A stretch of DNA of 64,000 nt from assembly GCA_018806985.1 (NCBI GenBank), contig JADANN010000169.1, positions 124,001-188,000 on the forward strand, given 5' to 3'. Of the stretch, positions 5,931 to 57,097 are shown piece by piece. A program made the translations under genes and the position numbers. Origin of the DNA: Angiostrongylus vasorum. Taxonomy: Eukaryota > Nematoda > Chromadorea > Rhabditida > Metastrongylidae. Under the pieces are notes generated by a model. It was not told where the DNA came from and searched no databases. It saw only the letters and a program-made list of their open reading frames with translations. Numbering within the stretch: the stretch's first letter is position 1; the number at the start of each line of letters is the position of its first letter.

Positions 5931-6646
5931 CATTATTCAACATTGAAACCTTCTTCAACAGTTCAGAGTATTTTTCACGAGTTGCATTTTTTGTTGAGAA
6001 CATGTCTACGTGCCAGATGAATTCCTTTTGAATGCGATTACGAATTGCGTTCAACGAGAAATAACATTCGGACCGTGGCAGTCCTTTGCCACCCTCAATG
6101 CCGGCTTCGTCGTTGAAAAACAAAGTAGAAATGATGCCAATTGAGCGAGACAGCGATCTCATACATTAGATTTCCCAACGTTCTGTAGGTACCCATCATA
6201 CGAGTGAGTAGCGGGAACTCTTTTCGATCACCCAGTTCGTCTACTAGTCCTGATGTCGTAAACACCGGTACCCCTTCCAGCCACAAAGCGGACATTCGTG
6301 CAACTGGTGCCAGTGCATAAACATATGCCAAGCCCATCACTGCGTCTACTGAACGATTGCAGTAGTGTTCTACCATTCGTTGTGGTGCGATGGCATCGCT
6401 GAGTTGAGTATCCTCGTAAACTACCTGTAGCGATCCGGGTGGCATTAGTTGGTGCTTGTTATACACGTCCTCGACGGCCACGTCAAACACTGGCTGACTC
6501 TTTGCCAGTGTGAGTTTGAATGGATTCTTAAATACGTGTCCTTCATTCTTTGGCAGTCCAACTACAATGTTGATTGGAAATCGCGGCGATTTCTGTGCTG
6601 TGATGAGCTGCAAATGCAGCATGATCAGCAAACGCTTAGACACCAT
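5931..6646 (-). CDS. gcy-28: Receptor guanylate cyclase, extracellular-domain exon (copy 1, frameshifted)
   Basis: Encodes the first half of an extracellular ligand-binding domain of the natriuretic-peptide-receptor type, which in these single-pass membrane enzymes controls an intracellular cyclase making cGMP. Translation starts at the ATG at 6646-6644 with a signal peptide (MVSKRLLIMLHLQLITAQ). Family landmarks in order are VDAVMGLAYVYALAPVARM, GVPVFTTSG, FPLLTRMMGTYRTLG and SECYFSLNAIRN. The exon ends at 5931 with donor GTAGGT, phase 1 (VSMLNN-G). The reading frame is broken: up to about 6121 it is one frame, afterwards the protein continues one base out of step, explained by one extra base in the A5 run at 6116-6120. 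So it is either a pseudo-exon or an assembly/sequencing slip. Copies 2 and 3 of the same domain lie upstream. The gcy-28 assignment is family-level inference. Confidence 0.85.
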
Positions 6647-6960
6647 GGATAATGTGGCAGTGTTGAGTGGCGAGAATAAGTTATGGTATGTGGTGCATTT
6701 ATAGAAGTGAATACACGATGAAAAAAGCTTGAATATTCAAGAATGCGTACTTAGGTAGACACGCTGTGCCACTGCCAGGCGAACCATCGTCACTCTCCTC
6801 TACGCTGGCCCCGCCCCCGCTTGGGATCGCCTAATGATGCCTCTTGGCAGGTACCATCTGCTTCTCGTACATATCGTCGGCATACCCATTTGACAGTGAT
6901 CTTTGAAAACTTCCGTCGACTAGGAATCATCACAACAGAACCAACACAGTGACGATCGTC
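6647..6960 (-). promoter_or_regulatory. Candidate 5' region of copy 1 with a GC-rich patch
   Basis: Immediately upstream of the copy 1 start. Between about 6765 and 6890 the base composition jumps to GC-rich, including CCCCGCCCCC near 6813, in otherwise AT-rich DNA. It may be a promoter or an undetected upstream exon. No TATA box or trans-splice acceptor can be assigned confidently. Confidence 0.3.
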
Positions 6961-8930
6961 ACATCACTAGTTCAGCATAAAAATTTGATATCCCTTCATT
7001 CTAAAACCAAACTGAAAAACCACAACGACCGACTCACAAATATGGTCGTTCCGAAGCATAACGACAAAAGGAAAACTCTACGAAGTTATAGTGCTCCTAT
7101 TGAAAAGTCGGCGCAAACATCATTTTGAATGCTCGAATCCAATTACGACGAACCCTGACATTATTTGGCTTGACGTAGGACATTTAGCATCGCACCAACG
7201 CTTTCTCATCTTTGTATATTCAGGGAATGGTTTTTCAGTAAAACAGTGAATTCTCGACAGCAGATAGTAAAATGTCAGCCAGAATTCAACAAGAAAACTC
7301 AGTAGGACGTTTCTTTTTTGGTAAAAAAACGGATCGGAAGTACTAAGCAGAATACGATAACCTTAACAATTAATGAAAGTCGACGAACATGAGCATTACG
7401 AAAACAAGAACGGAGCTACTTATGATTATGCAGATGACGAATTACGTTAGGAAGACGCTAATCAGAAACACTACAGGTGACCTTGCTTCAAACAAATTAA
7501 AGGATAAAAATGTACCCAGTTTAGCATTTCAACCTTAGAAATTTCTCAAACAATAACCTTTTTCTTCCAGCTCAATAGGCGTCTTTTCAAACACCCACTT
7601 TTCCAGTTTTATGAATGTGGATTCAAATTGGCTATACTCAAGCAGATTAAATCGGATTCTAGGCACTGGATGGAGTTGTTTTCGTTTTCTTGGATAATAC
7701 AACTTTTTCTTGTTGCCACTATAACTTCAAAAACAACTGCTTCAACTACGTCTACAGCATAGATAAATTAATAAACACTCTTCATGAGAACTAATATGGA
7801 ATACGGTAGCTGTGCAATTTGCAATAACAGAATAAAACGACACGGCTATGGTAAACTGATCGTGAACAACAATGAACGCCCAAATCTTCAGTTTTCCCGA
7901 AAAGAATTTTTGTGTTTTATGCAAAAACCGTCTTTTGGCCGTCACTAAGCTTTAACGTAGACACGGAGTACAGTTGGAAAAAATAAAAAGACACTTCCCA
8001 CAAGTAAATTCCCTGGTAGGAAACGCTTATTATGCATCAATATCGTGAAAGAAACCATCGACTTTACTGTGTCCTAAAAAGTACCCTGCGTCTTCGTCAT
8101 TTCACTTAATAATGAAGAGGCTCTTATTGCTAATTGAAAATTTGTAAAAATGGTGCAATGAGAAGGACGGACATTCCGGGAACGATAACCCGTTAGTTCT
8201 CAGGAACAATGTGGAAGCGGTTTGGTATCGCCAGGCGCTATCGCTATCCTACGAGTTTCTTGATGATATAGGAAAAACGAAAAACAGTGGAAGGTGACAG
8301 AAACTAATTGTCCACTAGACTATAAATCAACTAGTTATTTGGAAAATAAAGATTTTTGTTCAATTTCACCAGCTGATGGCGCTCCACTCCAGTCCTAGGC
8401 TTAATTTTCAGTAAAGATTCATTATCTCCACAATTTCGTCATTTATTCTCGAAAAGATTTATACGAAAAAAAGTTTTAAGGAGAAGAAATTAAAGAAGAA
8501 CAGACAGCATCTTGGAAGCATGAAAGTGATTTTGTGAATATAAAACGAAGCTGGCGAATTTTTATTAGTCTGCTGAGTGTAGGTATCACACTATACACAA
8601 GGTATAGTGGGTGAGAAACAGAAGAAAAAAAGAAAAAAGTGGAAAACAAGAGCTATAAATAGAAAAAGTAGGAGATTTTTTTCCCACTTTTTCTTTCTTT
8701 CCCGAAAAAAGAGGATTCCTTCAAAGATCATCGCTTCAGATAATGAATTCCGATTCCAAAGGATTTACAACCGTCGGACTTTTCAACTGTGTTTTGCAAC
8801 ATAACACTCGGACTTAACCTGACAGAAACCGCACAGTATATGTTTAAAACGACCGATGAAAGTTGTCATTAACTCTTCTCTTTTAGTTCATCGAACTTTC
8901 TGTGTATTTACAGCCACTCTGACATAAATT
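6961..8930. other. No gene seen
   Basis: AT-rich DNA with homopolymer runs. Short frames at 7742-7945 and 8607-8804 lack family features. Confidence 0.45.
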
Positions 8931-8933
8931 TGA

Positions 8934-9110
8934 ACGCGTCGTTTTTCTTGTTCAGCAATCGCGAGGTTGTTAAACAGCATACATTTACTTCCATAGAAAA
9001 CACAATACAATACAACAGTAGCTGACGTTTCGGCAGTATCGCCTTCTTCAGAGCCTGGAAGGGTATACTGACATACAATTTACTAGGCCAAACGCTTCAA
9101 TGACACTTAC
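8934..9110 (-). repeat. PLE terminal repeat (pLTR-like), left copy
   Basis: Shares with 12141-12312, in the same orientation, the blocks GCAATCGCGAGGTTGTT, GCTGACGTTTCG, a GGGTATA-containing stretch and CCAAACGCTTCAAT. On the minus strand, the element's sense, it lies 3' of the endonuclease. Penelope-like elements are known to carry such pseudo-LTRs, often with hammerhead ribozyme motifs. Confidence 0.75.
9020..9055 (-). ncRNA. Hammerhead-ribozyme-like motif of the PLE
   Basis: On the minus strand: CTGAAGA, then GGC...GCC (stem II), then GAAA and CGTC. The four bases before CTGAAGA (GGCT) can pair with the four after CGTC (AGCT) as stem I. The core differs from the consensus by CUGAAGA for CUGAUGA, one extra A before stem II, and an almost absent stem III. 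Minimal hammerheads in Penelope-like elements are known; whether this copy cleaves is unknown. Confidence 0.55.
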
Positions 9111-9244
9111 AAAAAGACGAAAAAACTCCATGGTAATTACATGGTCAACAGCTTCTCGAAAAAAACTCACCGCTTTTTTTACGTGCCTTCCCATGAGGAA
9201 GATTAGAACAGCTGATCATGGTCGCACAAGGTTGATGACTGCAC

Positions 9245-11105
9245 CATCCCACACCAGAAATTGATGCGAACATACGGGGTCAGGTCGCGTATGACCACTG
9301 GGCATTCATCCCTGCTATTCATTGTAGGGTTCTTGGCATTTATCCAAAAAGCCTCAAGAAGTTTTCGCGCTGGTGCTCTAGTCTCCTGCGCAAGGATATT
9401 GACTTTACTTCAAAATCGTCCCCGCTGTGCTTTTGTATCCTATGCGTGCCTAGTGGGGTACTTTGTCTTAGTTTTTCGTTTGCCATCTAGGTGTTCTTTT
9501 ATACGGATACACAAAGGCCTGCCCGTTTCGCCAATACATTCATCTCCGCAATTATTACACGAGATCAGGTACATCGTACCTGAACCCACGCAATCACCGT
9601 CCCTGCCGCAAGGGCAGATTACGCAATTTGTTGTTTCGCATAGACGGTCATACAGGCGGTTACGAACTAACTGACGACGTAGAGTAGCCGGTGGTATTTC
9701 AACTATCGCTACCGATTCCTCTAGACCTGCCCTTTTTAAGCATCGTTTAATCGCTACGCTTACTTCATCGCTAATAAAAGGGCAGCATAAACGGGACTTT
9801 CTTTTGGCCAAGTGTTTCGCTTGGGCGCGTCGCTCTCCTTCTAAACTTATCTCGTGGGGTTACTATTTCGTAGCCATTGGAGATGGCTATTTGCCGAGCC
9901 AAGTCGCGCGATTCTTCCTTTAGTTCCCCGGTTGTGCACACAGAGGTGGCTGTTCGAAACATGTTTCTCACAAGCGCCCTCTTTGTGTGTGAAGGGTGGG
10001 AAGAAAGGAAGTGAGCGGGGATGTTCTTGTTGCTTGGCTTTCGGTGCCACTTTGTCGGGTAACCGCTGCTTGGTGGGCTTATCTGGACGTTTGGGAACGG
10101 AAGCCAGTCTTTTCTCGGTTTCTCCCGGGTGAACTTGATGTACTCGGGCTGCTCGTTCAATGATTCAGAGCATTTGTCCATCTCCTCCTGCGTGAGAAGA
10201 TGACAAAACAATCATCTACATATCTGCAGTAGAGTAGTGGCCGGAGATCGAGAGCAGGGGCTTCTATCTTAGACATGAATACAATGGCAAGGCTTGGTGC
10301 CAGTCGCTGTCCCATAGCCAACCCCCTTATTTGCGCGAAATATTTCCCAGACCATCTGAAAATCGAGCAGTTTAGGCACTCCTTTAGGGAGAGCCATTAG
10401 CTGCTGAATGGACAAGCCATGCATATTTATTCTTCCTTCATGTTTAACAAGAAGTTCGAAGATGGCTTGCATTGCGGAGTCATTCGATACGTTGATGTAC
10501 AACGCAGTAACGTCGAAGGACTCCATCACGTACGCGTTATTAGGAGACGCGTTACGTAGACGTTCTAGGAACATTTGGGTGTTTGTGAGGTGAGCTGGAA
10601 TATGGTTAAGCAACTGGGTAAGTATTAGGCTTAAAAAACCAGGTTATTCTATCCGTTGGCCCGTCTACACAGCTGATGATGGGTCTAACCTTAAATGATG
10701 ACGGATTGGTTGACGCAAGATCATCAGGTGATACCAACTTATGTGTTTTAATAAGTAGGTATAGGACGGGACATGTTGGTGTATCGATTTTAAAGTGCGA
10801 AATAACCGATGGTTTTAAACCTGCAGCCTTTGCCACACTGACCCATTGATTGTTTAGCTTTCGGTATTGACTTTTTGTATTCCTTTTCAGAGGATGGGCG
10901 ATAGAGGGTAGCATCACTAAGATGTTCCTCTGTTATCTCAACATCCAGCTGGCGAGGAATAACTACGAACTCTCCCCCCTTATCACTAACAGACAATCTT
11001 ATTCTTTTTGAGTTTATTAATTCTCTAATTTCTCGCATGCCACATTTTTGTGCGGCTGTATAAATTTGAACATAAAAGCGATAAACCGCTCGGTGTTGAT
11101 CAATC
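9245..11105 (-). pseudogene. Penelope-like element polyprotein: reverse transcriptase plus GIY-YIG endonuclease
   Basis: Minus-strand coding remnant of a Penelope-like retroelement, whose product copies its RNA at a nick made by its own endonuclease. Reverse transcriptase blocks in order: SVSDKGGEFVVIPRQLDVE (about 11000), YLLIKTHK and FKVRPIISCVDGP (about 10690-10760), MESFDVTALYINV with the first catalytic Asp (about 10500-10530), GLAMGQRLAPSLAIVF (about 10280-10325) and YVDD (10211-10222). A linker follows with ALVRNMFRTATSVCT and ARQIAISNGY. The GIY-YIG domain at 9440-9660 has a Cys-rich insert (CVICPCG), MYLISCNNC, then CIGETGRPL and RIKEHLD, and a C-terminal AFWINAKNP block near 9330. 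Frame changes at about 10900, 10610, 10320, 10200, 9800 and 9430 break it, so it is inactive. Its N-terminal end runs into a SINE-B at 11108. Confidence 0.85.
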
Positions 11106-11107
11106 GC

Positions 11108-11300
11108 TAAGGGGTGCGCCATGCATTCGACTCCTCTGAGCATAGCCGAGACGAATCAAACCATTCTTTACCCCTACTGTAACATACAGTAAGTTGCGGG
11201 AGCCTACCGTGTTCTCGTCCTCCCAGCTTGATACAGACTGGCCAACACAGGATCATGTGTGTATTGCTGGTCACCTCTAACTACTACTCTACAACTGCCC
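11108..11300 (-). mobile_element. SINE-B copy at the 5' end of the PLE frame
   Basis: Begins with GCGCCATGCATTCGA, the motif also at 48795 and 55445, and ends with CACCTCTAACTACTACTCTACA, complement of the tRNA-like A-box region. It interrupts or abuts the PLE coding region, so a start codon at 11143 belongs to the SINE and not to the retroelement. Confidence 0.65.
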
Positions 11301-12140
11301 CATGAACATATTCAGAAAAAAAAAGACATGAAACAAGGAACTTTGGACTTGGCGAGCGAGAATTTTGTTGCAAGTTCATCAACATTTAGTAGATTATTCC
11401 ACTTTATTCCAATGTGCAGACTTCAGCTTCATTTCTACTCTTACATCAATACGAAATATAAGCATGCAAACTTGCCCAAGAATTCCAGGGGATTAGCCAT
11501 TCAGTAAAATGCCAGAAGAGCATAGAAAGACAAAGAAAAAGCCATAGAAACGAAAAGCACGAATAGACTCGTCATGATGCTTTAACTTTTATCCACTGTT
11601 TATTCTTTTTTCATAGCAGAGCACGATATGAAATACTACCATAAGGATGATGAGATATGCGCAAAACGTGGAACCCCATGAGTGCTTCGAACCCATGATC
11701 ACCCTTACTGGGTGCTCACATTGGTGTGGTGGATAGCATGTGCGCCAAATCACTTCCGTTTGGTGATTTCTGATAGCACTGATAAAGTAAAAACATGAGC
11801 GACACAAAACCAAACCATGGCACTCAGTTGGTGTGATGGATCATGCTCATTCATCATGCTGAGAACTTGAGATTAAACAAAATTTCCCAAGAATAACTTA
11901 GTTGGCGCGGATTTTAAAGTTTCATCATTCAAGTACTTAGCACTTTCCCAATGACGCCCAACCATAGGTTTATTGCGGGACGGATGACCCCCTAATTTTC
12001 AACCTTTACGGACATGCTGGTTCTTTGAAAACAAACAGTAATTTTTGGATAACTAAAGGTCTTCGCGGGTTGTGAATATGCATGGATTGCAGAAAAGACT
12101 TTGCTCTGTCGTTAACGATATTTATGGTGCTATTCACTAA
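11301..12140. other. PLE interior or spacer; possible tRNA-like fragment
   Basis: No coding match to PLE N-termini was found. On the minus strand near 11650-11740 there is a GGGTTCGAAGC B-box-like sequence beside GTGTGGTGG-like sequence on the plus strand, suggesting another decayed tRNA-derived element. The 74-codon minus frame at 11589-11813 overlaps it and is not credible. Confidence 0.3.
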
Positions 12141-12312
12141 ATGTGTCGTTTTGTTTTGCAGCAATCGCGAGGTTGTTATACACACGTTTACTTTCGTACA
12201 AACAACTCATACAGCACAGCAACAGCTGACGTTTCGCCAGTATCGCCTTTTCAGAGTCTGGACGGGTATATTGATATGCAGCTTACTATCCCAAACGCTT
12301 CAATAACACTTA
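12141..12312 (-). repeat. PLE terminal repeat (pLTR-like), right copy, with decayed hammerhead-like motif
   Basis: Same orientation and block order as 8934-9110. The hammerhead-like part at 12224-12258 on the minus strand reads CTGAAAAGGCGA...GAAACGTC, with the conserved core altered. The two copies flank about 3 kb containing the reverse transcriptase and endonuclease. Confidence 0.7.
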
Positions 12313-15300
12313 AGAAGAGTGTTATTTACTAAATGTTACTACAGTTCATCATACAAACACGTCCCTGTCAGCATTTGGAAGTGTTCTGCAACTATGAGTC
12401 TCTACTTCAGTATTTTTTACACCCCATACTCTATACGATAACTATAGCAACTGCAGCAATTAGAAAGTGCAGAATAGAGTTTTTCTCGTACAACGCCCAT
12501 TACAACATCTGTGTTCTACAAGCTATCAACTGTTAATAAAAAGTGCAGGACATAGTTCTATGTGTTAAAACAAACCAAAGGAAAGAAAAATGAAACCGGT
12601 AGGTATATGTCGGAAGAGTGTTAAACACCGTAATTCAAACTTCACTCCTTTTGCGGTTGAAATAAAAGCTTCTTCGCCAAGGGGCGGCATTTATAAAGGA
12701 GTTGAAGGTCGTCTTTGTTCATCAGGTGGATGGAGCTTGTCATTCAGGATTCTAGAATCCTGTTGGAAAGAGTGCTCTGTTCTTGAATTGAATATCTACA
12801 CCCTTCAGCCATCTCAATTAGAGCTGGGAATGAGCCGAGAAGAGTCGTCGCCCAATTGAGTTTGCGATCGCCTCAGCTTTCTTTCTATGTTGCTCAAAGG
12901 TGACAGCAGGATGAACTCGAGAGCACTCAGCACTCTAGAATCTCACCGGATGGACAAAAAGGTTCCACAAAACGGCCATTTCGGTCTGGTTCAATAAACA
13001 ATCATGAAAAACTGCTTCTATACCCGATCTATTTTATTCAGTATTGGTTCCACTTACTGCTCTACAAAACACACTGTTAATGAATAACATACATTTTCCA
13101 GTATAGTTTGGCAACGCACACAAACAACAATGATAACCAAAAAAAAGTTCATAACAGTAACGTGGAGTTGATAAAACCTCCTTTAACGAAACTGTTGAGC
13201 TTCCGAGAGAAGAACTCTCCAGGAGAGAAGCGGAAATAAATAAATAGATGTCATCAAAGATCTCCACAAGAGCAAAATCGGTGTGGATAACGGATCGAAA
13301 AGAATTCGATTACATAAAGAAGAATACTGCACTAATATTTCTTAGAAATTTCTAATAGTAGACTCCACCGCATGATTCTGAACTAACAATTCAGCGAAAA
13401 AGTAAACTTTTCATGACTCATGATGCATCCCAGTGAAGAGAGATGAAAACTAGGAAAAGATTCCGTTAGGTAAAAAAATATGTAACAGCTTTTCAACGCA
13501 CAGTTTCTGAATTGCTAGTAATTCCGATCAAAGAAAGTTAAATCCGAAATGGATACACTACACTAATCGAATAAAAATCGAATGTCAAAGGAGGAAAAGA
13601 GAAGTAGAAAAGAGAAAGGACAGCGAGAAAGAGACTAAAAAGAAAAACTGAGGGAAGGTTTAGTCTCAAAAACAACGCCATCCTACTCTTGTTTGCCAAC
13701 CCATTCTCGTGTTGTCCATTGTAATCGTTCGTTTAGTGAAAAAAAATATTAGTTTATGGCTCGTAATTGATGAATAACGACAGACTATGAACGACTTCTA
13801 GCCCGTGAAGAAGTTCAAGCGGATCTGAACTCTATCAAAGAAGATAAGTTAAAAAGTACGCAAATCAAGCAGGAGCAAACATCATTGGCAAAAGAGGAAT
13901 ATAGTGTTTTCCAAGTCCCCAGCTATACACAGTGCTGTGTTCTTCACAGAGAGAGCTCGCTATCAACCTATGGCGAGCCATATCACCTCCAATCGATTAC
14001 CAGTTATAAAAAATATGCTGTCATTAAAAACGTAGCCAAGTAAAGAGAACAATACCTATTGTAAAACACTCTGAGCGACATTAATTGGATGACCATTGAT
14101 TTAAATTCATGTGTGACTGAAAATAGTTGCGCACCTCTCAGCTTTAACACATAGTGAGTGGACTATGCGCGTTAGTTTCAAAGCACACAGTGTAAAGAAT
14201 TCTCCCACTTCATCGAGACTCGCTTTTTGAAATTCGAAAGATCGAACATTCAGAATCTCGTTGTAGTGGATGTAACTATGTCTCAGCTAATGATTGCAAT
14301 CGGCAAGCTTGCGGTAGAAATTTCAAAAATTTAAATTTTATTTTCGAGAATGGTGGTTCCCTAGAACTCATAAATCTTCTTTTTTTTTGCTTAGATTCGT
14401 TAAGAAACAGAGAAGTGATTGTGCAAGCGGAACTCCGCTCAACAAGACAGGATGGTGCCTTCCAAAGTGTCGTTGATTTTGACGGAACTGATGCAGTTAC
14501 GGTAGAAATTTTAGATACTATGTTATTTTTTCAATTTTTTTTTGAAAAGATAGCTATAAACAAGTTTAAAACGGAGGTTACGCCGCAGAATGAGCACACT
14601 CTTTGAGCGATAGGGCAACACCTCATCTGTAAGTCTTCCTTCAAGTTCCTCAATCTACGAGCCTCCTCGATAGGTCGTCAGAGGAAACCTGTGTTGTCTC
14701 GAATGCATTAGTGAAAACTCACTCCGAGTTGCTTAGTTTTGTTTCCAATAGAAATACCTGCATCCATTACAGTTTAGACTTCGAGTAAGAAAAACATCTA
14801 CAGAAAGTGAACTATATCGGCGTAATTTTATTGTAGAATTTGATCAAAATTGCAGGCTTATCTAACCACACATTTCCCAAGAGTTATGAAGAAATGATGG
14901 CATTGGTGGTCCGGCAATCGGAAGTTTTCAACTACAAAAAATGCTCGCTGTAGACTACTAGCAAATTTTTCACCTTGCAGTTTTTTCACTGTTAGATGGC
15001 ACCATCGCGATCGCCAGACTGGACAGAAATATTTCTGAATAAAACATTGCGATTTTCGTCTGGAGGATTTCTGCGTCATTTGAAACGTTCTTCCCAATTA
15101 ACTAACGGGTCTTTTTTGATTACCGTCTACTTTCCTAAAATAAAACTAGTAAACAGTTAAATTTCTAAATGAAATGCTTCCGTTTAATACACATAAACAC
15201 ATTCAGAGAGCAAAAAAATGCATCCATTTAATGGTTATAGCTTCACCTACTAAGTAACAGAGCATATTTTGAACGAGGATCCCAAAAAAAAATCGATAGG

Positions 15301-17255: not shown

Positions 17256-18830
17256 TTAATCAAAACAAAGGGCGCTGAACCTACATATTTTACATATTTT
17301 TTTCAACAGAAAAAGTTTACTTACTCTAGTTGCATAGAATTTTGGAGTTCTGGAACCGATGAATCCGTTGAAGGCATTTTCTTCGTCATCACGGTTGGTG
17401 AAATATTTCTGGCGCAGGAAGTTGTCAAGGTGGTTGGAGAAGTGATAGTCGGTAGACGAGAGGTCTGAGGAATATGGCAGATAAGGCAAAGTTTCGTAGC
17501 CCAACTTGTTCAACTTCTGCAGCGCTGGTTTCGCAACGTGAGGCCGGGAGTTCTCGTACAGAAGAATTGGTCTTTTTCTGTTGAATAATGCCGGTCGTTG
17601 TTGTTGGAGTTTACGGTTCATTTCGTCGATTTGTTGCAGTAGTTCTCTGTCGTAATTGTTTCACCCGGATTCAAAAAACTGCGATGAATCAGCCCGGCTG
17701 CAGATCATCAAATAGTCACCATAATTTTAACTTATTATTTACTGCCTACTCTTTTTAACGGTGATTGCTGATAGCAAAAGATTGATAGAACTAGCTGAAA
17801 GACAAGCGGAACGAAAGACCCGCATGGTGTGGTGGTGAACGCGTTACTCCCCGGAAAGGACAATAGGGCGTTCGTTCCCCACCGCAGACACCTGGGGTCC
17901 GGAGTTTTGCAAATATCTCAACATTATCAAAGTTGTATTTCGCAATATATACTTTGCCTTCAAAAGAGTAGACAGTAAATAATAAGTTGAAATTGTGATT
18001 ATAACTGCAGCCTCAGCTTAACTGGGTTCGTTGCCGATTTAGGCTCCCCCAGATCAATCCCGCTGATGGGTGATTGCTGATGCCAAAAAGATCGATAGAA
18101 CTATCTGAGAGACAGGCGAAACGAAGGACCCGCATGGTGTGGTGGTGAACGCGTCACTCCCCGGAAAGGACAATAGCGCGTTCGTTCCCCACCATAGGCA
18201 CCTGGGGTCCAGAGTTTTGCAAATATCTCAGCATCATCAAAGTCACCATAATTTTTTTTGGTGCGGTTTCGCTTTTAGGCGGTGATGTGCGGCCTCATCG
18301 AAATCCGACCATTGAGCTGAACTCGTTGGCTGTCGCACAGAATGCATTTTTCGTCGCACATCACAATTCGATCATGAAAAGGGTCGTTTTTGTCGTGCAG
18401 AATAAGAGCAGACGACATCTCAAAACGGCGTTTTTTCGATTATCATTTAATTCGTGCGGCATCCACTCGTCCAGTTCTTTTTTTCGTCTTTCCTATGCGA
18501 TTCAAGTGACTAGAAATTGTGCCTTTGGTGACGCCAAGCTATTCTGCAAGCTCTCCAATAGATGTTCGCTTCCACTACTGTCTTCAATTCGTTGTAGTCA
18601 AGTTTATTGCAACGTCTGCAGCCTTTCTTATCTTTGAGATCGAAATCACTAGATCGGAATTTCCGGAACCATGTTCACACTGTATATTCACCAACACTAT
18701 CGCCACCTCAAACGTCATTAATATTTCCAACCGTCTCTGCTGCACTGCGACCGAGTTTGAACTCATAAAAGAAAATCTGACGAAAATTTGTTTTTGACAT
18801 TTAAAATTGCAAAGCTCAAAATTGGTAGAA
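17256..18830 (-). pseudogene. Mariner transposase (inactive)
   Basis: Cut-and-paste DNA transposase remnant on the minus strand. N-terminal helix-turn-helix region: FKLGRSAAETVGNI and TVWTWFRKFRSSDFDLKDKK (about 18620-18770), then a second DNA-binding helix pair around 18490-18600. The catalytic acids of the D,D34D triad are IVMCDEKC (first Asp kept, about 18345), LLYENSRPH (second Asp replaced by Glu, about 17560) and SSTDYHF (third Asp kept, about 17450). Several stops and frame changes occur. Where the family has two Trp codons after KKIMVT, there are two TGA codons (about 17710). A SINE-C pair with a 15-bp duplicated site splits the frame exactly inside KKIMVT. The protein cannot be made. 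Confidence 0.88.
17714..18255 (+). mobile_element. SINE-C double insertion with 15-bp target duplication
   Basis: The direct repeat AGTCACCATAATTTT occurs at 17714-17728 and 18241-18255 and brackets 512 bp. Inside are two SINE-C units in tandem, each with GGTGTGGTGGTGAACGCGTT (A-box region), GCGTTCGTTCCCC (B box) and GGTCCGGAGTTTTGCAAAT or near variants. The first unit begins with an inverted copy of the SINE-C 3' end (17729-17756, complement of 17958-17985). Confidence 0.85.

Positions 18831-20061: not shown

Positions 20062-20065
<4 letters not shown>
19046..20065. other. No gene seen
   Basis: AT-rich. Frames at 19270-19455 and 19566-19805 are short and featureless. Confidence 0.4.

Positions 20066-20128
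<63 letters not shown>
20065..20128. repeat. (TA)n microsatellite
   Basis: About 31 uninterrupted TA units. An alternating CACAAATATACG/TATTTGTG near-palindrome follows at 20137-20157. Confidence 0.98.
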
Positions 20129-32478: not shown

Positions 32479-32642
32479 ACTTATTGGCACCATTTGTATA
32501 ATGAATTGCATACCATCGGTGGAAGTTTACATTCACATGATTCTAAACAACAAACAAGACGTACTATTCTTACTAATCGAAAATTAAATGAGAGAGGAAA
32601 ATGAAAATCGATTAATACTAAAAGAGACTACGCGAACTCACC

Positions 32643-33527
32643 ATTGGTTTCCATTGACACCTCGCTAAGCCATTGTTTAGTCGTTTCACGAGTACGCGGA
32701 AGTTCTTCGTCGAATGGAAACGATGGTGTGTTCAGTTGCCATTCACGTTTGAACACTTTACTATTCTCAGTGAAATAGTTTTTTATAGCGTAAAGAGAAA
32801 AATAGCAATGTGATGACGATACGTCAGAGTCTTGACTATCGCCGTCCTTTAGGGGTTTGTTCACGGCTCGTTTCTTGTCATGATAGAAGAACATCATCTT
32901 TAAATAGTTTAAGCTTATCGACGATATGTTTCGTGGTGTCGATGTTTCAGTCGGATCTTGATAGGCAATCAACTGGTACATCGACACTGCCAACTGACGA
33001 TATGAACCTTGCATACGTGTTAGAAACGGATAGGATTTCTTCATGTTCAACACTGATGGCATGCCGGCAGTAGTCAGCACCGGTACACCACCATTTAAAC
33101 CGGCCGATACCTTAGTGACAGTCGCCAACCCGTAACTGTCGGCGAATCCAAGAATAGCGTCAAGTCGATGTTCACAATACGCTTTAACCATGCCGACGGT
33201 GGCGTAACGTTCAGCTAAGTTCATGTCTTCCCAGTAACGATCGTCCCAAAATGTCAGATTCACCCATCCGGGTGGCATACGACCTGATTTAACCACATCT
33301 TCGACGGCGATATCAATTACAGGTCGGGCTCTTTCGATCGTTAGGCCAAACTTGTCATTGTTTGATTCTTTAGCCGGTAACACGACAAGGATATTGTACG
33401 GAAGCGTGTGGCCACGGGTTGTTGTCGTCGAATGCACAGCATTCTGAGCCGAAACCGTGTGCAACAGAACTAGCAGAACGAGAAAGAACCATAACGAAAT
33501 AGGTGCACAACATGCAACGACGTGCAT
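32643..33527 (-). CDS. gcy-28: Receptor guanylate cyclase, extracellular-domain exon (copy 2)
   Basis: Intact single exon encoding about 295 residues of a natriuretic-peptide-receptor-type ligand-binding domain. The preferred start is the ATG at 33527-33525, because it directly precedes a strong signal peptide (ISLWFFLVLLVLLHTVSAQ). The same frame stays open up to an ATG at 33773, which would put 82 odd, Cys-rich residues before the signal peptide; I treat those as 5' leader. Landmarks: PYNILVVLPAKE, RARPVIDIAVEDVV, LDAILGFADSYGLATV, GVPVLTTAGM, YPFLTRMQGSYRQL and HCYFSLYAIKN. It ends at 32643 with donor GTGAGT, phase 1, at the position equivalent to copy 1. The segment before HCYFS is longer and more acidic than in copy 1. 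The rest of the receptor must come from downstream exons not found here. Confidence 0.9.
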
Positions 33528-47354: not shown

Positions 47355-47457
47355 CTTTCCCCAAAAAACTAGATTGCATCAAATAGTTTTTGTATTGGCT
47401 ACGATTCACCCGTTCATTTTGATTGAATGTGAAGAAATTATGCTCCATGTTGATAAT
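47355..47457 (-). CDS. gcy-28: Receptor guanylate cyclase copy 3, exon g (last in window)
   Basis: 103-bp exon between acceptor TTTCAG (left of base 47457) and donor GTAAGT (47354-47349). It reads INMEHNFFTFNQNERVNRSQ and then YKNYLMQSSFLGK-G, phase 0 at the start and phase 1 at the end. It aligns with the C-terminal end of copy 1 (FSTKNATREKYSELLKKVSM, then LNN-G): same position, same phase. No open frame listing would show it, because it is only 34 codons; the splice sites plus the positional match are the evidence. Confidence 0.72.
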
Positions 47458-48381: not shown

Positions 48382-48525
48382 CTGCTTGACGGTGACCTGT
48401 ATGCTCGCCATCAGTAAGAAGCACTCGCCAACGGCCATTGCGGAGCCTTTCACATGATGGAAAAGAAACACATGACGAGTCCAGTGATGATAACGAAAAA
48501 GCGCAACAACACTTTGAGCCACCAC
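48382..48525 (-). CDS. gcy-28: Receptor guanylate cyclase copy 3, exon f
   Basis: 144-bp, 48-codon exon, phase 0 at both ends: acceptor ATATTTAG before GTGGTGGCT, donor GTAAAG after CAG. It reads VVAQSVVALFRYHHWTRHVF, then LFHHVKGSAMAVGECFLLM and ASIQVTVKQ. This aligns with copy 1 from LMYEIAVSLNWHHFYF to CYFSLNAIRN, keeping the Trp-His pair and the conserved Cys before the Phe. The first part of the family's acidic insertion is shorter than in copy 2. A SINE-A lies in the intron between exons f and g. Confidence 0.78.
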
Positions 48526-49494: not shown

Positions 49495-49640
49495 TCTATG
49501 GATCTCTCAAGCTAGCATTATATTTGCCAAACCAGGTCGGACAGACGGCTTAGTGAACTCTAGGCGTGTGATCGAACCAATGACTGATCACGTGTGTATT
49601 GCCGGGGGCCTCTAGCCAGTGCGCTTCATACGCTCGACAT
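49495..49640 (-). mobile_element. SINE-B fragment
   Basis: Head side only: GTGTGATCGAACCAATGACT, GTGTATTGCCGGGGGCCTCT and AGCCAGTGCGCTTCATACGC. Confidence 0.6.
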
Positions 49641-49879
49641 ACTTCAAAAAAACACACTAGTCTTCTTGCAAAGTATTAAAAGGCGTCGTTTTAAAACTGC
49701 GACTCAGTAGGTGTTCTTAGAAAACCTTTAAAATCAACATGTTCTCACTTAAACCTATAATCAAACATCGGCGACGATATGCACTGATATCAATGCATTC
49801 GTATATTAAGTCTCTGGAATTTGAACAAATATTTCTTATGCAGTAAATCCCAGGATCGAATTTCTATTAACCTCTGCAT

Positions 49880-50010
49880 TTATCAATAATTCACTGCTTT
49901 CTTGATGAGTAGATTGTTTCAACAGAATTTATTCACAATAGCTGAAGTTCCGTGAGTTTCGTCTTCCTCAGAGCCTCGAAGGGTCAAACGAAATTTACTC
50001 AGACAATAAC
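49880..50010 (-). repeat. PLE terminal repeat, diverged (PLE 2)
   Basis: GCTGAAGTTCCG, TCTTCCTCAGAGCCTCGAAG and GGGTCAAACGAAATTTACTC follow the order of 9020-9090. The preceding AATTCACTGCTTTCTTGATG recurs at 61010. Confidence 0.6.
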
Positions 50011-50079
50011 TTTTATAACCATAGCACACGAAACTTAGTACATAAATTTCATTCGTAAAACAAACAGCTTCTCTTAAAC

Positions 50080-51935
50080 AATCACGGGCTGGTTCTTTGT
50101 AAATCCTCCAGACACTGTTGGAGACCAGCATCACAGTACTACATGGGCGACGAGTGTTTAAATATCAATCTAAGATATTGCGCAAGACCACAAGAGCATT
50201 ACGCTTTACGGTTCACTTCTGGATTTTTGGAATTCATCCAAGACGTTTGAAGGATTTTATGTGCCGATGTGTTAAATTCCTGTGCATAGCTACTGACTTA
50301 TACTTCAGAACCTTCCCCATTATTTCTTCATGCCCTATGCGTGCTTACTAGAGTGCTTTCTTCTACTTTGAGTTTTTTAAACTAGGTGCTCTTTTGTACG
50401 GATACAGAAATGTCTACACCGCTCGCCAGCCTATTCTTCCTCAAACGCATTACAAGAGATCGGATGCACCGTGTCCGAACTCATGCAATTACCTTCTTTA
50501 CCGTTGGGGCACATTATGCAATTTTGCGTTGTGCATAGGCGGTCATAGGAACGGAGTCAGACTAGCTGGCGACTTAGAGTGCTCGGTGGTAATTCAATCA
50601 CTGCTACCAAGTTCTCTAGACACGCCCTTTTTCGCTTTACAGCTGTACTTACTTCATTGAAGAAATGGGGGCAGATTAAATGGTGCTTTGTTTTCGTAAG
50701 ACTTGTCGTTCGAGGGTTTTATTTTTTCTCTAAACCTATCCCGAGGAGCCATCGATTCGTAGTAATTTAAAGTGGATACTTGCCGAGCAAATTTCAGATA
50801 TTCTTCTTTCCGCTCTCTTCCTGTGCACACACTGGTGCCTGTTCGAAACATGTTTCTCACAACCGTCTTTTTGTGTCTGAAGAGTGAGAGGAGAGGCAAT
50901 TAACTAGTATCCTATGTTATTTGGTTTTCACTGCAACTTGCTGATGTAGCCAAGGTTAATTTGAATGTTCAGAAATGGAGGCTAATTTTCTTCCGATTTC
51001 TCTCGGGTAAATTTAATGCACTCCAACTATTCATTCGATAACTCAAAACACTTGCGCAACCCGTTTTATGTGCAGCAGATGAAAAAACAACCATCCATAT
51101 ATGTATGTGTATATGTGTGCAGTAGAGTAATGTCTGCAGATCGATTACTACTGCCTCTACCTTAGACATAATGGCAATAGCAAAGCTTGACGCCAATCGC
51201 TGTCTCTGCCAACGCTCTCATTTGTGCGAAATACGTCCCAGACCATCTAAGGACTGAACAGTTTAGCCTCTCCTTTAAGAGAGAACGGTGCTGAATTGGG
51301 AAGCCATACATGTTTGCTGCTCTTTCGTGTTGCTTAAAGAGTTCGTGGATGGCTTGCACAGCGGAGTCACTCGGTGTTAGGACGCGCGTTACGTAGGCGA
51401 TCCAGGAACGGTTAGGGTATTTGTGAAATGAGCATGGATATGTTTTAGCAACTGGATGAGAATTAGGTTTATAAACAAAGCTATTCTATCCATCGGTCCG
51501 TTCTACATAGCTGACGATGGGTCTGACCTTGCATAATAATGAATCGGTAGACGCAAGATCTTTCTTATTTTTTTACTCTAGTGGTGCTATTAGCAAACAT
51601 TCAATAAGAATGCGATAGAAAAATTGGCTGAGAGCAAGGGAAAGTAAGAGGCGCGGTTGGTGTGGTGCATTGGCACGTCAGCTCCCGGTAAGGATAAGCG
51701 TTGGTTCGAAGCCCACCTGAAACTCCGAGTTTTGCTCATATCTCAGGATCCTTGTCGTTGTATTTCACTAATTTGTGTTTCTTAATAAATAAAGTACAAG
51801 GCGTGGCATCTTGGTAATTCAAGTTTAAAACGAGAAATAACTGATTACTTTAAAGTTGCCGTTATCGCCACTCTGGCCACTCATTGTTCAAGCTTCGGTA
51901 TTGGTTTTCGAATTCCTTTTCGAAGATGATGGGAG
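50080..51935 (-). pseudogene. Penelope-like element remnant (PLE 2), heavily decayed
   Basis: Homologous over its length to the PLE at 9245-11105 in the same orientation. Near 50215 is the C-terminal SWMNSKNPEVNR block. 50430-50530 has the Cys-rich GIY-YIG region in broken frames. 50654-50899 has VVRNMFRTGTSVCT and ARQVSTLNYYE, about 51162-51359 has AIHELFKQHERAANMYGFPI, and 51480-51560 and 51780-51935 have the N-terminal RT blocks. A SINE-C (51565-51785) sits between the last two. Stops and indels are frequent, so it is not functional. Confidence 0.75.
51565..51785 (+). mobile_element. SINE-C copy inside PLE 2
   Basis: TTGGTGTGGTGCATTGGCAC head with an exact consensus B box, GGTTCGAAGCC (51703-51713), then CTCCGAGTTTTGCTCATATC. 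It splits the homology of PLE 2 to PLE 1 between positions equivalent to about 10720 and 10740. Confidence 0.72.
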
Positions 51936-51954
51936 ACGAAAGGAAGCTTCATAA

Positions 51955-52395
51955 AGATGTTTTCCCGGTATGGAGTCCTTCGACGTCACCGCTACAAATG
52001 TTTCAAATGACTTCGCTATGCAAGCTACCCGCAAGTTCCTTAAGCAATACGAAAGAGCAATTAACATGTAGCATGTATGGCTTCACTGTTTGTTCTTTTC
52101 TTGTAAAACATGTGAAAACGAATATGTTAGCTAAGCAGGTAGACCATCGTGTAAAGCTGCACCTACTTCGGAAACTTAAATCTAAACAAAATACTCCACT
52201 AGGAACGCATAGGGCACGAAAACAATGGGAGATTTTGAAGCAAAAGGTCACTATCTTCGCATTCTGGATAAATTCCAAATATCCAAAAAATAAAACGCAA
52301 GAAGGAGTGGCTCGTGATCAAGTGTGACCTCGCGCCAAAGCTCAGGCTGTTTTTTGACCTCAACCAAGTCTCTAGCAACAAAATCTGATTTACTT
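51955..52395 (+). pseudogene. Penelope-like element remnant (PLE 3), internally deleted, opposite strand
   Basis: Plus-strand PLE piece. At about 51971-52075 one frame reads MESFDVTATNVSND, the RT block with the first catalytic Asp. From about 52090 GIY-YIG remnants (ENEYVS, a stop, then AGRPSCKA) appear in another frame. At 52225-52300 ARKQWEILKQ and FAFWINSKYPKNKTQ correspond to the C-terminal end of PLE 1. The catalytic YVDD region and linker are deleted. A 147-codon open frame at 51884-52327 crosses these pieces in a mixture of right and wrong frames and is not a real gene. Confidence 0.7.
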
Positions 52396-52404
52396 ATAAT
52401 GCCA

Positions 52405-52740
52405 GTAAGGTAGCATATAGCATCTCGCTCCGGGCTCAACAAGCCCCTCATCCCATCAGGGTCGGGAAACTGGTACTGGACTTGTCCGGGAAAAAAAATC
52501 TCCGTCTGCAGTCCAAGTGGTAACGCTTTAGATAAGCTATCTCAGAATTCCAAGGAGAATCGACAAGAACGGTATTCAACGACATTCATGATCAAAGGGA
52601 AATCCTCAAGCAGAGGCCGAAGCCACAGATAAAAGTTGGAAAACCTTAGTGGATGATGGATGCGAGGAAATGAATTGTAGGGGGGTGAAGTGCTGGGATC
52701 TGCACAGTAGCTCCGAAAGAGGTGTTGTGTAAAAAATAAA
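52405..52740 (+). mobile_element. SINE-A copy
   Basis: CTCAACAAGCCCCTCATCCC, TGGTACTGGACTTGTCCGGG, CAGTCCAAGTGGTAACGC, AGCTATCTCAGAATTCCAAG, GAAGTGCTGGGATCTGCACA. It directly follows PLE 3; the tRNA-like head is poorly kept. Confidence 0.75.
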
Positions 52741-53129
52741 AAAAATATGATCCCAATATGACGCTCCAAGATTTTGAAACTTTTTTCCTCGAGCCTTGGA
52801 TTTCTAGCAGAGAAGCGACTGGACAGATTTTGGTATCCAGAAGAACGCGACGATGTCCATGAATGTGTTAAAGATGACGGCTGCCACTCTGGCATCAAAA
52901 CTCCTTACTTTCTGTCTAAATTGAAAAACTAAAAAGAAGCGATGTAGGGAGAGCGTTTTTACACGACCCTGGCAAGTCTATCACTCAAGCACTTCACCTG
53001 TTGAAAATTTGTTGGCAAAGAAATCAACAGCTATGGTAAAGCGAGAATGCTCTCGAGTTTGTTAATGAGGGTCTGTTGATATTTCATATGTAAACATATT
53101 TACGTAATTATCTGTAAAAAAAAGCGCTT

Positions 53130-53165
53130 GTCTCGCGATTGCTGAACAAGTAAACGACACATTCG
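53130..53165 (+). repeat. Small PLE-terminus fragment
   Basis: TCTCGCGATTGCTGAACAAG is the complement of the CTTGTTCAGCAATCGCGAG block at 8948-8966. Confidence 0.6.
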
Positions 53166-53501
53166 ATGTTCTACTTTAATTATCCAACATTTCATGGCAG
53201 TAATGCCTAAAATCATACTTGTTTTTCACTTTAAAATGAAAAATCACCTGAATCAAGGCAAAAGACATGCCCATTTTGATAAATCGGGCCGATAACAACT
53301 CAAAGGAATCGGGATAACAATGAGACAATAACAGTGAAAACTGAGTGAAATACAAAGCAAAAGAGGAGAAAGAAAAGCAGAAAAAAGAATTTGCCGAGTG
53401 AAAAGCGTAAAATTGAATGTAGTAAGTCAATAACTCCCTATATAGTTCCAAAACTCAAGCGCGTTTCACCTAACTAATACCATTGCTATTCATCCACCCA
53501 C

Positions 53502-53594
53502 CTTGTAAGGACCACTGATCCTCGTTAAGGTCTGATATTCCATTTTATTATCAAGATTCATCGTTAGACCGATTGGTGTGATTACCGGAATACC
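53502..53594 (-). CDS. gcy-28: Receptor guanylate cyclase copy 3, exon e
   Basis: 93-bp exon, 31 codons, phase 0 at both ends: acceptor CCTTCAG, donor GTGGGT. It reads GIPVITPIGLTMNLDNKMEY, then QTLTRISGPYK, aligning with copy 1 from GVPVFTTSGLVDELG to LLTRMMGTYRTLG and with copy 2 from GVPVLTTAGM to LTRMQGSYRQL. The G-(I/V)-PV and LTR-(I/M) blocks are the family signature in this part of the domain. Confidence 0.85.
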
Positions 53595-53909
53595 CTGAAG
53601 GGAAAATTAATAGGCCACTGGAACAGCCTGGGATAAAAATCAATAACTCATCTACTGGAATACCTTGAGCTGAAGATCATTAACAACTAATGTAATATTA
53701 CGAACATTTACTTTGAAAAAATAGTAGGATGCGCCAATTCATGCAAAAGAATCGCCTTCTTATGCAGCACTAAACACATCTAGCTAAAGCACTCTGATTC
53801 CCAGTATCTGGAAAATTTCGATCCCACAAAATCGCAGAGAATGACGCCGTGTCGCACGAAAATCGGCTCCCCCACCGCAGTTCCGGAGAATTTGTCCGAA
53901 AGTACATAC

Positions 53910-54002
53910 ATTGCTATCGTCGTCTTGCCAGTATGGACACATACGAGCAACCGGTGCTAGAGCGTAGACAAAAGCGTATCCGATAATACAATCCAAACGA
54001 TT
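53910..54002 (-). CDS. gcy-28: Receptor guanylate cyclase copy 3, exon d
   Basis: 93-bp exon, 31 codons, phase 0 at both ends: a long polypyrimidine run plus CCAG before AATCG, donor GTATGT. It reads NRLDCIIGYAFVYALAPVAR, then MCPYWQDDDSN. YALAPVARM is identical to copy 1 and is a hallmark of natriuretic-peptide-receptor-type domains. The Cys that precedes NRS in copy 1 is absent at the exon c/d junction; a Cys five residues later may take its role. Confidence 0.88.
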
Positions 54003-54447
54003 CTGGAAAAAAAAGAAAAAAAAGAGATAGTAAGACAAAAAACAGCATAATGGAAAAAAACGTACTCGCATACAAGACTCTAAAGCGTGAAGTCATCGGC
54101 AATAAATAGTATCTTGAAATATGCGTAAAGATCCGAAAAATTTATAAAACCGTTGCAGATGTGTAATCTGATTTCGCAGATAACTCTGTTACGGTCTAAG
54201 TGAACCCTCCAGAAATGCAGGTTCTCGCTGGTTTAGCGCGCCAGTGGATTCATAGGGTTACTCACTGCCTAGTGGGACAACAAAGGATTGCGATACTGGT
54301 TCAGAAACCACTGGCATAAAAAACACGTAAAAATGAAGTAAATAAAATTGAGCCTTACTTTGAAAACAGAAAAAGTGAAGCCTTCAAAAAAAAACAGTAG
54401 AGTTAATTATGAAAGAAAACAAGTAGTAGGTCCAGAAAATATATCAC

Positions 54448-54541
54448 CTTGACCAACTGCTGTATAGCAACGTTAGGACCATGAGCATCAGATAATTTAC
54501 TATCGCGGTAAGTAATAGCCATCGAATCGTGTGGAACATAT
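54448..54541 (-). CDS. gcy-28: Receptor guanylate cyclase copy 3, exon c
   Basis: 94-bp exon starting in phase 2 (acceptor TTCAG) and ending in phase 0 (donor GTGATA). It reads YVPHDSMAITYRDSKLSDAH, then GPNVAIQQLVK, aligning with copy 1 MPPGSLQVVYEDTQLSDAIA. The SxLSDA block is shared. The entering phase matches the CA left over at the end of exon b, making a Gln codon. Confidence 0.85.
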
Positions 54542-54658
54542 CTGAACAACTAATAAATTGATGACAGACAGCGTTTCTTAAAAAATTACTTCGAATTCCC
54601 TACTAAAAATGGACTAAAAATAAGAGACTACTAACTAAGATTTAAACAAACCACTCAC

Positions 54659-54708
54659 TGAAACTTTCTATATGCATCATCCACTGCGAGATCAATAACG
54701 GGCTTAAC
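54659..54708 (-). CDS. gcy-28: Receptor guanylate cyclase copy 3, exon b
   Basis: 50-bp micro-exon: acceptor GATTCCAG, donor GTGAGT, phase 0 to phase 2. It reads VKPVIDLAVDDAYRKF plus CA. It aligns with copy 2 ARPVIDIAVEDVV and copy 1 SQPVFDVAVEDVY. Although tiny, the motif plus both splice sites and matching phases on either side make it convincing. Confidence 0.85.
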
Positions 54709-54902
54709 CTGGAATCAAGTGTTGGAGGGAAGTGCTTAAAAAAAAATTGGTGAAAAAATAGAATAATAAAGCAGAAGTTTCCATCCCTGGAAACCGTATA
54801 TATTTAGTTCATTAGAAAGAGAAACTGAGCAATAAATGCTAGAAGTGTCTGAAATGTTGTTATGTTCTTCGAATTCTATACCATCAAACAACAGTTACTT
54901 AC

Positions 54903-55285
54903 TTGATCCTTGAACGGCCCGTCCTCACAGATTGTGCGGGCCCCAGCATAACCACCACTTTTCGGAGATTCGTTAAGCTCGTTAAACCACTGTGGTTCCA
55001 TGGAATCCCGAGATTAGCCTGGCCAAAGTCTGCCGCAGATCGTCACCACGACAGGCAGTCGCAGCCCTTGTGGATCAGAGGGAGATTTACCACCATGCGA
55101 AAAGTTGGATATCAGGACGATGGTAAATCCTGGTATTGGTTTACTCTTAGCTAGGCTTCCTGATGGAAAAGCCGGACTCCTCAGCCTGGAAGACCCTGTC
55201 GGGGAGACGAATCGCCCGCTGTATATCGCAGTCCGACACCCAGGAGCACCTATCACCCACGATGAGGTGGTAAACAGTTGGGAGG
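54903..55285 (-). repeat. rep-D copy 4 (reverse strand)
   Basis: Complement of the full repeat: begins at right with GTTGGGAGG (complement of CCTCCCAAC) and ends at left with the complement of GTGAGGACGGGC. It lies inside the intron between exons a and b of copy 3. Confidence 0.82.
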
Positions 55286-55419
55286 ACCAAACAATAAATT
55301 GATCAGAAAGCTCCGCAATCCTTTAAGTTTCTAAGATCTAGTGCCTTTATTGAACAAACAAGTTAACCTGAACTGTATTATTACATATGTAGTATTGCAA
55401 CATATAATGGAAAGGATAG

Positions 55420-55680
55420 AGCCCTCGGCGTTGGTCAAACCCTGAGAGATGCGAAATGCATTCGCCTTCATTAAAGATCGTTTGAGGTGACTGAATGTAC
55501 ATCTGGCCTGTACTGACCAGCCGTGGCTACCGATGTATCGAGCCAGTGCTCCCAGACAAGTCTGGTACCAATTTGCCAACCCCTGAGGAATAGAAAGCTT
55601 GGCAAGACTGGGCCGCGGCATCGAACCCATGTGTATTGCAAGGCGCCTCTAACCACTATGCTACACGCGCCCCTTATAAC
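55420..55680 (-). mobile_element. SINE-B copy, well preserved
   Basis: Tail GAAATGCATTCGCC, centre CCCAGACAAGTCTGGTACCA, head side CATCGAACCCATGTGTATTG and CTCTAACCACTATGCTACAC. Confidence 0.82.
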
Positions 55681-55812
55681 ATATAATATGCACTACTAAT
55701 ATATTACTGAAAAAAAATCAATTATCGACAAACAGACCCGAGTTCTCTGGAAGCTTTCAAAGTGAAGCAAACCATAACTTGAAAGAAAAACCTTGTCGAC
55801 TACGTTTTCAAC

Positions 55813-56127
55813 TTGGAACTTATTGCGAACTTTCCTAGCGTAGTTGGCTCCTACAGATGCAAAAAAGTTTTCAACGAAGGATTTGACGTCTGTTTAGTAC
55901 GTCGGTGTAGAAACACTTTCCATCTAAGCTTGGCTGCATGGTTACCTTTAATCGACTTAGTTTTACAACATGAAGATGAATGTAGACCAGACTGTACCTT
56001 CAAAGCTCTATCAACATTATTAGATTATACGCCTATTCTTCCCGTAGATCAGGTTTTTGATACCAAATTCGACAACTGCCTCAAAGGGCAGCCACCGACA
56101 ATTGCATGTATCGATTTACATACATAA
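55813..56127 (+). CDS. Unidentified 104-codon open frame, doubtful
   Basis: Open frame of 104 codons beginning at an ATG in the intron between exons a and b of copy 3, on the opposite strand. The product would have eight Cys (including a HEDECRPDC cluster) and no signal peptide, membrane segment or motif I recognise. Its composition is less biased than most frames here, which is why it is listed. It could be an exon of an antisense or nested gene, a repeat fragment, or chance. Confidence 0.15.
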   Translation: MELIANFPSVVGSYRCKKVFNEGFDVCLVRRCRNTFHLSLAAWLPLIDLVLQHEDECRPDCTFKALSTLLDYTPILPVDQVFDTKFDNCLKGQPPTIACIDLHT

Positions 56128-56349
56128 TCAAACCTTGGTCTCCAGCTACGATGTTGTCCAACAGCTCATGTAGACAGTCCAAAAGTGCACAAAGGGACTG
56201 ACAAGCCCCTGCCTTACTAGTATCATTCTTCAGGAATTAAGATATTCCATTTTGAAGAATTTCTTGGGAACCGCAGTTGGCTAGATAATCAACTTCTGTC
56301 GAGCTTTCACAACAAAAGGTCACTGCTAAATTTAAACAGATAAGGGAAA

Positions 56350-56625
56350 AAAGCACTCGGCATTGACGAATTCCACAGGAATGCGCGAAGCATTCGATTC
56401 CTTTCATTTTGTCGTAGTGATTCTAACATATTTGGTATATACAATGATGAACGGAGCCCTACCGATGTACCAAGTCAGATTTTTTTGTCCGCCAATCAAC
56501 TTTTTGTCCGACAAGACGTACCAATTTGCCGGGATGGGTCACGGTCAGCACAGGCATGTTATTGAACAAATGACGACGTATTTACTGCATGACACCTCTA
56601 ACCGCTGTGCCATATGTGCCTCATT
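56350..56625 (-). mobile_element. SINE-B copy, diverged
   Basis: GAATGCGCGAAGCATTCGAT, CCTACCGATGTACCAAGTCA, then GACAAGACGTACCAATTTGC (centre damaged), and CACCTCTAACCGCTGTGCCA at the head side. Confidence 0.7.
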
Positions 56626-57001
56626 GCCAAGATTTTGCGACCAATCTAATTAAATTATTAACATGAAAATATGTCACCTAAGTCCTCACGATTCTAGTGA
56701 TGTTATCTTCACTTATCTACATTCCTTAGGTTTCTTACCTGGTCGCTCTACTTGCAATCCAACATGCATTTATCATATTTTGTAACCTCTGCATTTTTAC
56801 GAGCACAGATTTCTCTAGCGGTTTTATTTCCCAAGGCTATATGAAACCGCACATTTTAAACGTAGTAACCTGAAGCCCACTTCACACTTAAAAAATCGCA
56901 TACTTGAAATTTTTTTGGAAGTTAACAACTCTTGTTGGTCAAGCTGTTTTTTTTTAAAAAGCTCTTCAACAGATTTCAAGAAGGGCACGATTCCAACGTA
57001 C

Positions 57002-57097
57002 CTTGAGAATTGAAAGGCCGAAAGGATTTTTGAGTTCTTCTTCAACGTCTTCAAGCGGCAACGGTACTATGATATGAACTGGATGAATCACCGACAC
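57002..57097 (-). CDS. gcy-28: Receptor guanylate cyclase copy 3, exon a (first identified)
   Basis: About 96-bp exon ending in phase 0 at donor GTACGT. It reads VSVIHPVHIIVPLPLEDVEE, then ELKNPFGLSILK. It aligns with copy 1 PINIVVGLPKNEG...KNPFKLTLAKSQ; the KNPF block is shared. The left border is set at acceptor GACTTTAG (57098-57099), because the same frame has a TAG there, but a later AG is possible. It has no signal peptide, so at least one more 5' exon is needed, probably beyond 57100 or outside the window. Confidence 0.8.

Follow-up and report, generated by a model that had tools for sequence, protein, structure and literature searches.

Three receptor halves and a single cyclase body

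The stretch of DNA analyzed here (the window, 64,000 nucleotides) is taken from the nematode Angiostrongylus vasorum, assembly GCA_018806985.1, and corresponds to the plus strand of contig JADANN010000169.1 (C169) from 124001 to 188000, window position 1 being C169:124001. The genome searched comprises 279.9 Mb. The window contains three blocks, copies 1 to 3, which encode different versions of the N-terminal half of a receptor ectodomain related to that of the Caenorhabditis elegans guanylate cyclase GCY-28; the corresponding halves are referred to as types 1, 2 and 3. An earlier annotation made from the sequence (the original prediction) had described three minus-strand versions of one half-domain, each with a phase-1 donor closing it at the corresponding residue. 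Open reading frames, Pfam searches and alignments confirm both points, and the base before the donor is a G in all three copies (Table 1). When the copies are aligned globally with one another, the scores exceed those of 200 shuffles by 15 to 27 standard deviations, and the likeness is therefore not due to chance.

Copy 1 has a signal-peptide-like start at its ATG, and its donor GT occupies 5930-5929. It matches the ANF_receptor profile (PF01094) with 60 bits, above the curated cut-off of 25.4, and is 57% identical to the type-1 half of C. briggsae. Its reading frame is broken by a shift near 6117, inside a T run, and the protein first proposed for this copy straddles the two frames. Both pieces align with type-1 relatives. 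A DNA search of the genome found no second version of copy 1, the sole match being the copy itself.

Copy 2 is intact, with a signal-peptide-like start at its ATG, and its exon ends one base beyond the previously assigned 32643. It is of the half type of the C. elegans protein P0084, to whose half it is 62% identical. It shares 98% identity with P0001 from Angiostrongylus costaricensis and 78-91% with proteins from Dictyocaulus, Nippostrongylus, Ancylostoma, Oesophagostomum and Necator. Every one of its 65 relatives (E<=0.001) that carries an organism name is a nematode protein. Its ANF_receptor score of 19.5 bits is below the cut-off, and a PDB sequence search gave no real match. The predicted fold of the isolated half is a modest model (pTM 0.48) whose best structural matches are NPR-C and NPR-A, with low TM-scores of ~0.3; together with the body, the type-2 half is predicted to adopt an ANF_receptor-type fold.

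Copy 3 consists of seven exons with GT/AG borders, and its frame is open throughout. The exons originally listed for it are present, and a further one of 144 nucleotides, which had been overlooked, completes the half and provides the cysteine equivalent to Cys164 of NPR-A. An earlier exon for the signal peptide is needed because an in-frame stop lies just upstream of the first located exon. Copy 3 is 57% identical to the half of C. elegans isoform d (P0085); queried only as two short pieces, it has no match to ANF_receptor.

Table 1. Exons of the three N-terminal halves in the window, in the order in which they lie on the minus strand.
Feature	Position	Strand	Length and remarks
Copy 3 (type 3), first located exon	57097..57002	minus	96 nt
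Copy 3, exon	54708..54659	minus	50 nt, phase-2 donor
Copy 3, exon	54541..54448	minus	94 nt
Copy 3, exon	54002..53910	minus	93 nt
Copy 3, exon	53594..53502	minus	93 nt
Copy 3, exon	48525..48382	minus	144 nt, completes the half; absent from the original prediction
Copy 3, last exon	47457..47355	minus	103 nt, phase-1 donor after 47355
Copy 2 (type 2)	33527..32642	minus	single intact exon, ATG at 33527, phase-1 donor after 32642
Copy 1 (type 1)	6652..5931	minus	single exon, ATG at 6652, phase-1 donor after 5931

No membrane, kinase-homology or cyclase exons were found among the copies, as had been proposed. Searches of the window with full-length receptors (tblastn) gave nothing convincing, namely a few short matches with E values of 0.6-0.9 and none reaching 1e-4. 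Ten queries with N-terminal halves revealed no fourth half on the contig, as all 57 contig matches (E<=0.1) fall at the three copies. Scanning the window for Rfam families and for tRNAs gave no hits.

The body occupies C169:121017-101097, left of the window and, like the copies, on the minus strand. A shared body accepting phase 1 had been predicted on that side, and it is found there once, in full domain order: the second half of the ectodomain, the membrane segment, and the kinase-homology and cyclase domains. The match starts at 121018, which is the last G of the intron, and the first exon reads ...CTGTTTTACAG up to the border and TA ATC ATA CTA TGC after it, a phase-1 acceptor. As all three copies supply a G in phase 1, each would give Val-Ile-Ile-Leu-Cys at the junction. 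The predicted introns to this acceptor measure 8,913, 35,624 and 50,337 bases for copies 1, 2 and 3, respectively. The minus strand of C169 covers the Ancylostoma ceylanicum model P0087 over 970 of 978 residues, the eight others being the first of the model, ahead of the junction; for the A. costaricensis model P0118 the coverage is 856 of 865 residues. Outside C169:121017-101097 the contig has no match to another body (E<=1e-4). With a single body present, the DNA of this contig rules out that each copy has a set of downstream exons of its own. When P0087 was searched against the whole genome, 47 of 175 candidates were scored and 51 matches listed. Within this list, C169 is the only contig matched by the ectodomain part; on other contigs the similarity is to kinase or cyclase regions and is either lower in identity or limited to short stretches.

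Orthologous halves in other nematodes

Part of a Caenorhabditis body, used as the query, gave 351 proteins, the best 120 of which were listed. Two of them are C. elegans GCY-28 proteins, P0084 and P0085, the latter named isoform d. Compared by eye, the start of P0084 has the residues of the published gcy-28.c forward primer, and that of P0085 those of the gcy-28.d primer. The two proteins share 25% identity in their N-terminal halves; in the bodies, all 975 aligned positions agree, and the alignment contains gaps of 1 and 13 residues. Alternative N-termini of C. elegans gcy-28, isoforms c and d each having a promoter of their own, are described in the available passages of PMC9249223. The suggestion that the A. 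vasorum gene is an ortholog of gcy-28 with N-terminal isoforms is supported by two C. elegans proteins that carry different halves on one body and by the tree described below. In C. elegans, the type-3 protein matches almost the whole ANF_receptor profile; for the type-2 protein the match begins only a little ahead of the junction.

The same pairing is found in Parascaris, where a type-3 and a type-2 protein have bodies identical over 454 residues; the type-3 model, whose body has a total of 504 residues, diverges at its end, after the shared 454. Halves of the copy-1 type are joined to the gcy-28 body in other species. Among P0001-P0118, the halves at a recognised junction comprise 19 scored as type 1, 14 of type 2 and 3 of type 3, with doubtful labels for P0088, P0094, P0101 and P0109 (type 1) and P0105 (type 3). 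The first half of P0009 scores 464 as type 3 against 162 as type 1. The junction residue is V in all type-2 (14/14) and type-3 (3/3) halves and varies in type 1, being L in seven, M in five, I in four and V in three, a variation that the split codon allows.

Public gene models, mostly from parasitic nematodes, split the gcy-28 gene. In P0001-P0007, which have 299-395 residues, the type-2 half forms a protein by itself. Twelve models of the body (P0087, P0092, P0095, P0102, P0104, P0106, P0107, P0110, P0112, P0114, P0116 and P0118) lack any N-terminal half and have their start at the junction region, shortly ahead of it or within it. The gcy-28 layout explains both the stand-alone half proteins and the headless cyclases among parasite gene models.

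A tree was computed from 61 hand-chosen rows (17 of type 1, 28 of type 2, 7 of type 3 and 9 outgroup), with the root imposed by the outgroup and some rows long-branched. Each type forms a group containing one copy of the window, with support of 94/88 for type 1 (99/96 for 15 rows, two long ones being left out), 100/100 for type 2 and 100/100 for type 3. Copy 2 groups with C. elegans type 2, copy 3 with the type-3 half of isoform d, and copy 1 falls in the type-1 group. The type-2 clade includes Plectus, ascarids, filariae, tylenchids, Strongyloides and rhabditids. The other two types, sampled less than type 2, range over rhabditids, Aphelenchoides and Parascaris (type 3) and over rhabditids, tylenchids, panagrolaimids and a doubtful pinworm row (type 1).

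Gene order is retained as well. The order 3-2-1-body occurs in models of Aphelenchoides besseyi and A. fujianensis, 3-2 in C. bovis and 2-1-body in C. tropicalis; in Steinernema hermaphroditum, the type-2 protein QR680_007645 and the type-1 receptor QR680_007644 have neighbouring locus tags. For types 1, 2 and 3, respectively, the window halves are 58, 65 and 61% identical to those of C. bovis and 58, 55 and 52% to those of A. besseyi. Within Caenorhabditis, type 2 is more conserved than types 1 and 3 in pairs with C. bovis: 86% for type 2 and 69% for type 3 with C. elegans, and 77% for type 2 and 58% for type 1 with C. auriculariae. The constant half of the ectodomain is 82-90% identical in seven other species pairs. 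Judged from these sequence comparisons, the three-half arrangement is old and also present in distantly related worms, each copy belonging to an old clade of its own.

Alternative N-termini and competing explanations

The window very probably represents the 5' part of the gcy-28 gene of this metastrongyloid worm, which codes for a receptor guanylate cyclase with three alternative N-terminal halves for one body. The gene anatomy, the matching splice phases, the single body, the old orthology and the joined proteins of C. elegans and Parascaris all argue for this assignment. Copy 3 would come first, followed by copy 2, copy 1 and the body. Each copy would encode a different N-terminal half and be spliced to one common phase-1 acceptor, at a distance of 8.9 kb for copy 1, 35.6 kb for copy 2 and 50.3 kb for copy 3. 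The constant body would supply the second domain half, the membrane segment and the kinase-homology and cyclase domains. Each half would presumably have its own promoter, as printed for C. elegans isoforms c and d in the passages of PMC9249223. A swap of halves may change the ligand, because the counterpart half of mammalian NPR-A bears the hormone-contact surface, and the output machinery would be kept. The arrangement could let one enzyme answer different signals. A wider proposal, possible but rather doubtful, is a three-way ligand switch that predates the split of the main chromadorean lineages, in which each half binds a different ligand in different cells and mixed dimers form where halves are co-expressed. 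If this is true, such dimers would widen the range of specificities, and all of them would act through one body that makes cGMP. Three old, separately conserved halves on one body offer a direct test by half swap alone.

Several observations weigh against these interpretations. The frame change means that the copy 1 half may be broken in the animal, or the assembly may be wrong there. The first coding exon of copy 3 was not located in ~19 kb scanned upstream for a start codon, a hydrophobic core and a phase-0 donor; C169:190924-190832, the lone weak candidate of the scan, is not claimed as that exon. The type-1 group has the weakest support in the tree, and no sure type-1 half was seen among the tree rows from ascarids or filariae. 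As to ligands, the available passages of PMC9249223 report loss of the hypoxia response on overexpression of gcy-28.c as well as of gcy-28.d, an outcome that does not tell their ligands apart even in C. elegans. The literature passages give no ligand for C. elegans gcy-28. Some docked contacts of NPR-B and NPR-C fall in the constant half, according to the passages of PMC9699598.

The frame change of copy 1 and the unlocated first exon of copy 3, together with the transposon-like stretches (types assigned by eye) and dispersed repeats between the copies, would also fit three gene fragments or pseudogene relics, with copy 1 alone, or one copy only, attached to the body. We regard this as very improbable: copy 2 is intact and almost identical to its A. 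costaricensis counterpart, the seven exons of copy 3 match in phase and contain no stop, all three halves show similar identity to their C. bovis orthologs, and types 2 and 3 sit on a shared body in C. elegans and Parascaris proteins. These joined proteins likewise argue against copies 2 and 3 being short secreted half-domains, or decoys, that end inside the long introns, an explanation suggested by the deposited strongylid models of the type-2 half alone (P0001-P0007). Those models resemble automatic splits, in keeping with the point at which body models such as P0087 begin, and an isolated half would, by analogy with NPR-A, lack the cysteine partner carried by the body. There is thus only a slight chance that the halves act as decoys.

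Least probable, to an almost negligible degree, is a single long protein with all three halves in tandem (3-2-1-body). The predicted Aphelenchoides proteins P0066 and P0067 have exactly that form; automatic gene finders, however, commonly fuse alternative first exons by mistake. Copies 1 and 2, moreover, start with their own ATG and a hydrophobic stretch within the exon, and both C. elegans proteins contain one half each. Alternative N-termini of one receptor thus remain the preferred explanation.

Intervening sequence and comparison with known systems

Much of the repeat content lies between the three halves. On the minus strand, window 9440-11155 and 50654-51485 have, by eye, the look of Penelope-type retroelements, with GIY-YIG-like and reverse-transcriptase-like frames; the two resemble each other at 72% over a 144-base piece, and neither has a Pfam match at the cut-off. 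A minus-strand frame at 17256-17660 resembles, by eye, the end of a mariner transposase and has no Pfam match. The dispersed short repeat family D4 occurs at window 4617, 46086, 52423, 59256 and 63916, and families D1-D3 and D5-D10 are also dispersed over the window; some stretches neighbouring these repeats are tRNA-like by eye. An unbroken run of the AT dinucleotide (31.5 copies) occupies 20065-20127.

All docking contacts of human NPR-A printed in the passages of PMC9699598 map to the swapped half. The A. vasorum halves differ in that cysteines 60 and 86 of NPR-A are absent from them. We know of no alternative N-terminal halves for vertebrate NPR-A and NPR-C.

The layout is that of variable-first-exon genes, with tandem variable blocks, a single constant set, one acceptor and one phase. 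UGT1 and the clustered protocadherin genes likewise join each of their tandem variable first blocks to one constant set, and the variable exon of UGT1 encodes the signal peptide and the recognition half, according to the passages of PMC1885805. In copies 1 and 2 the block itself contains an ATG and a hydrophobic start; the start exon of copy 3 was not found. In contrast to those systems, whose many variable exons undergo birth-and-death turnover, the A. vasorum locus has three old, well separated halves, encodes a membrane receptor cyclase, and has one half (copy 3) split into at least seven exons.

The closest likeness is to C. elegans gcy-28, in which type 2 and type 3 halves stand on one body with the same junction residue; two half types were found in the C. 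elegans searches, whereas the A. vasorum locus has three. A three-way, order-conserved arrangement, or its spread, was not found described in the available passages, a partial coverage of the literature, of PMC9249223, PMC3842693, PMC12324235, PMC4935464, PMC5225109, PMC3506735, PMC1435932 and PMC12208668 on cyclases, PMC1885805 on UGT1 and PMC9699598 on docking. Nor did the literature searches, as far as their results were listed (15 of 33, 40 of 70 and 5 of 16 in three cases), give a title or abstract concerned with how the three halves are conserved. To the known alternative N-termini of gcy-28 in C. elegans, the present analysis adds a third half and a conserved order.
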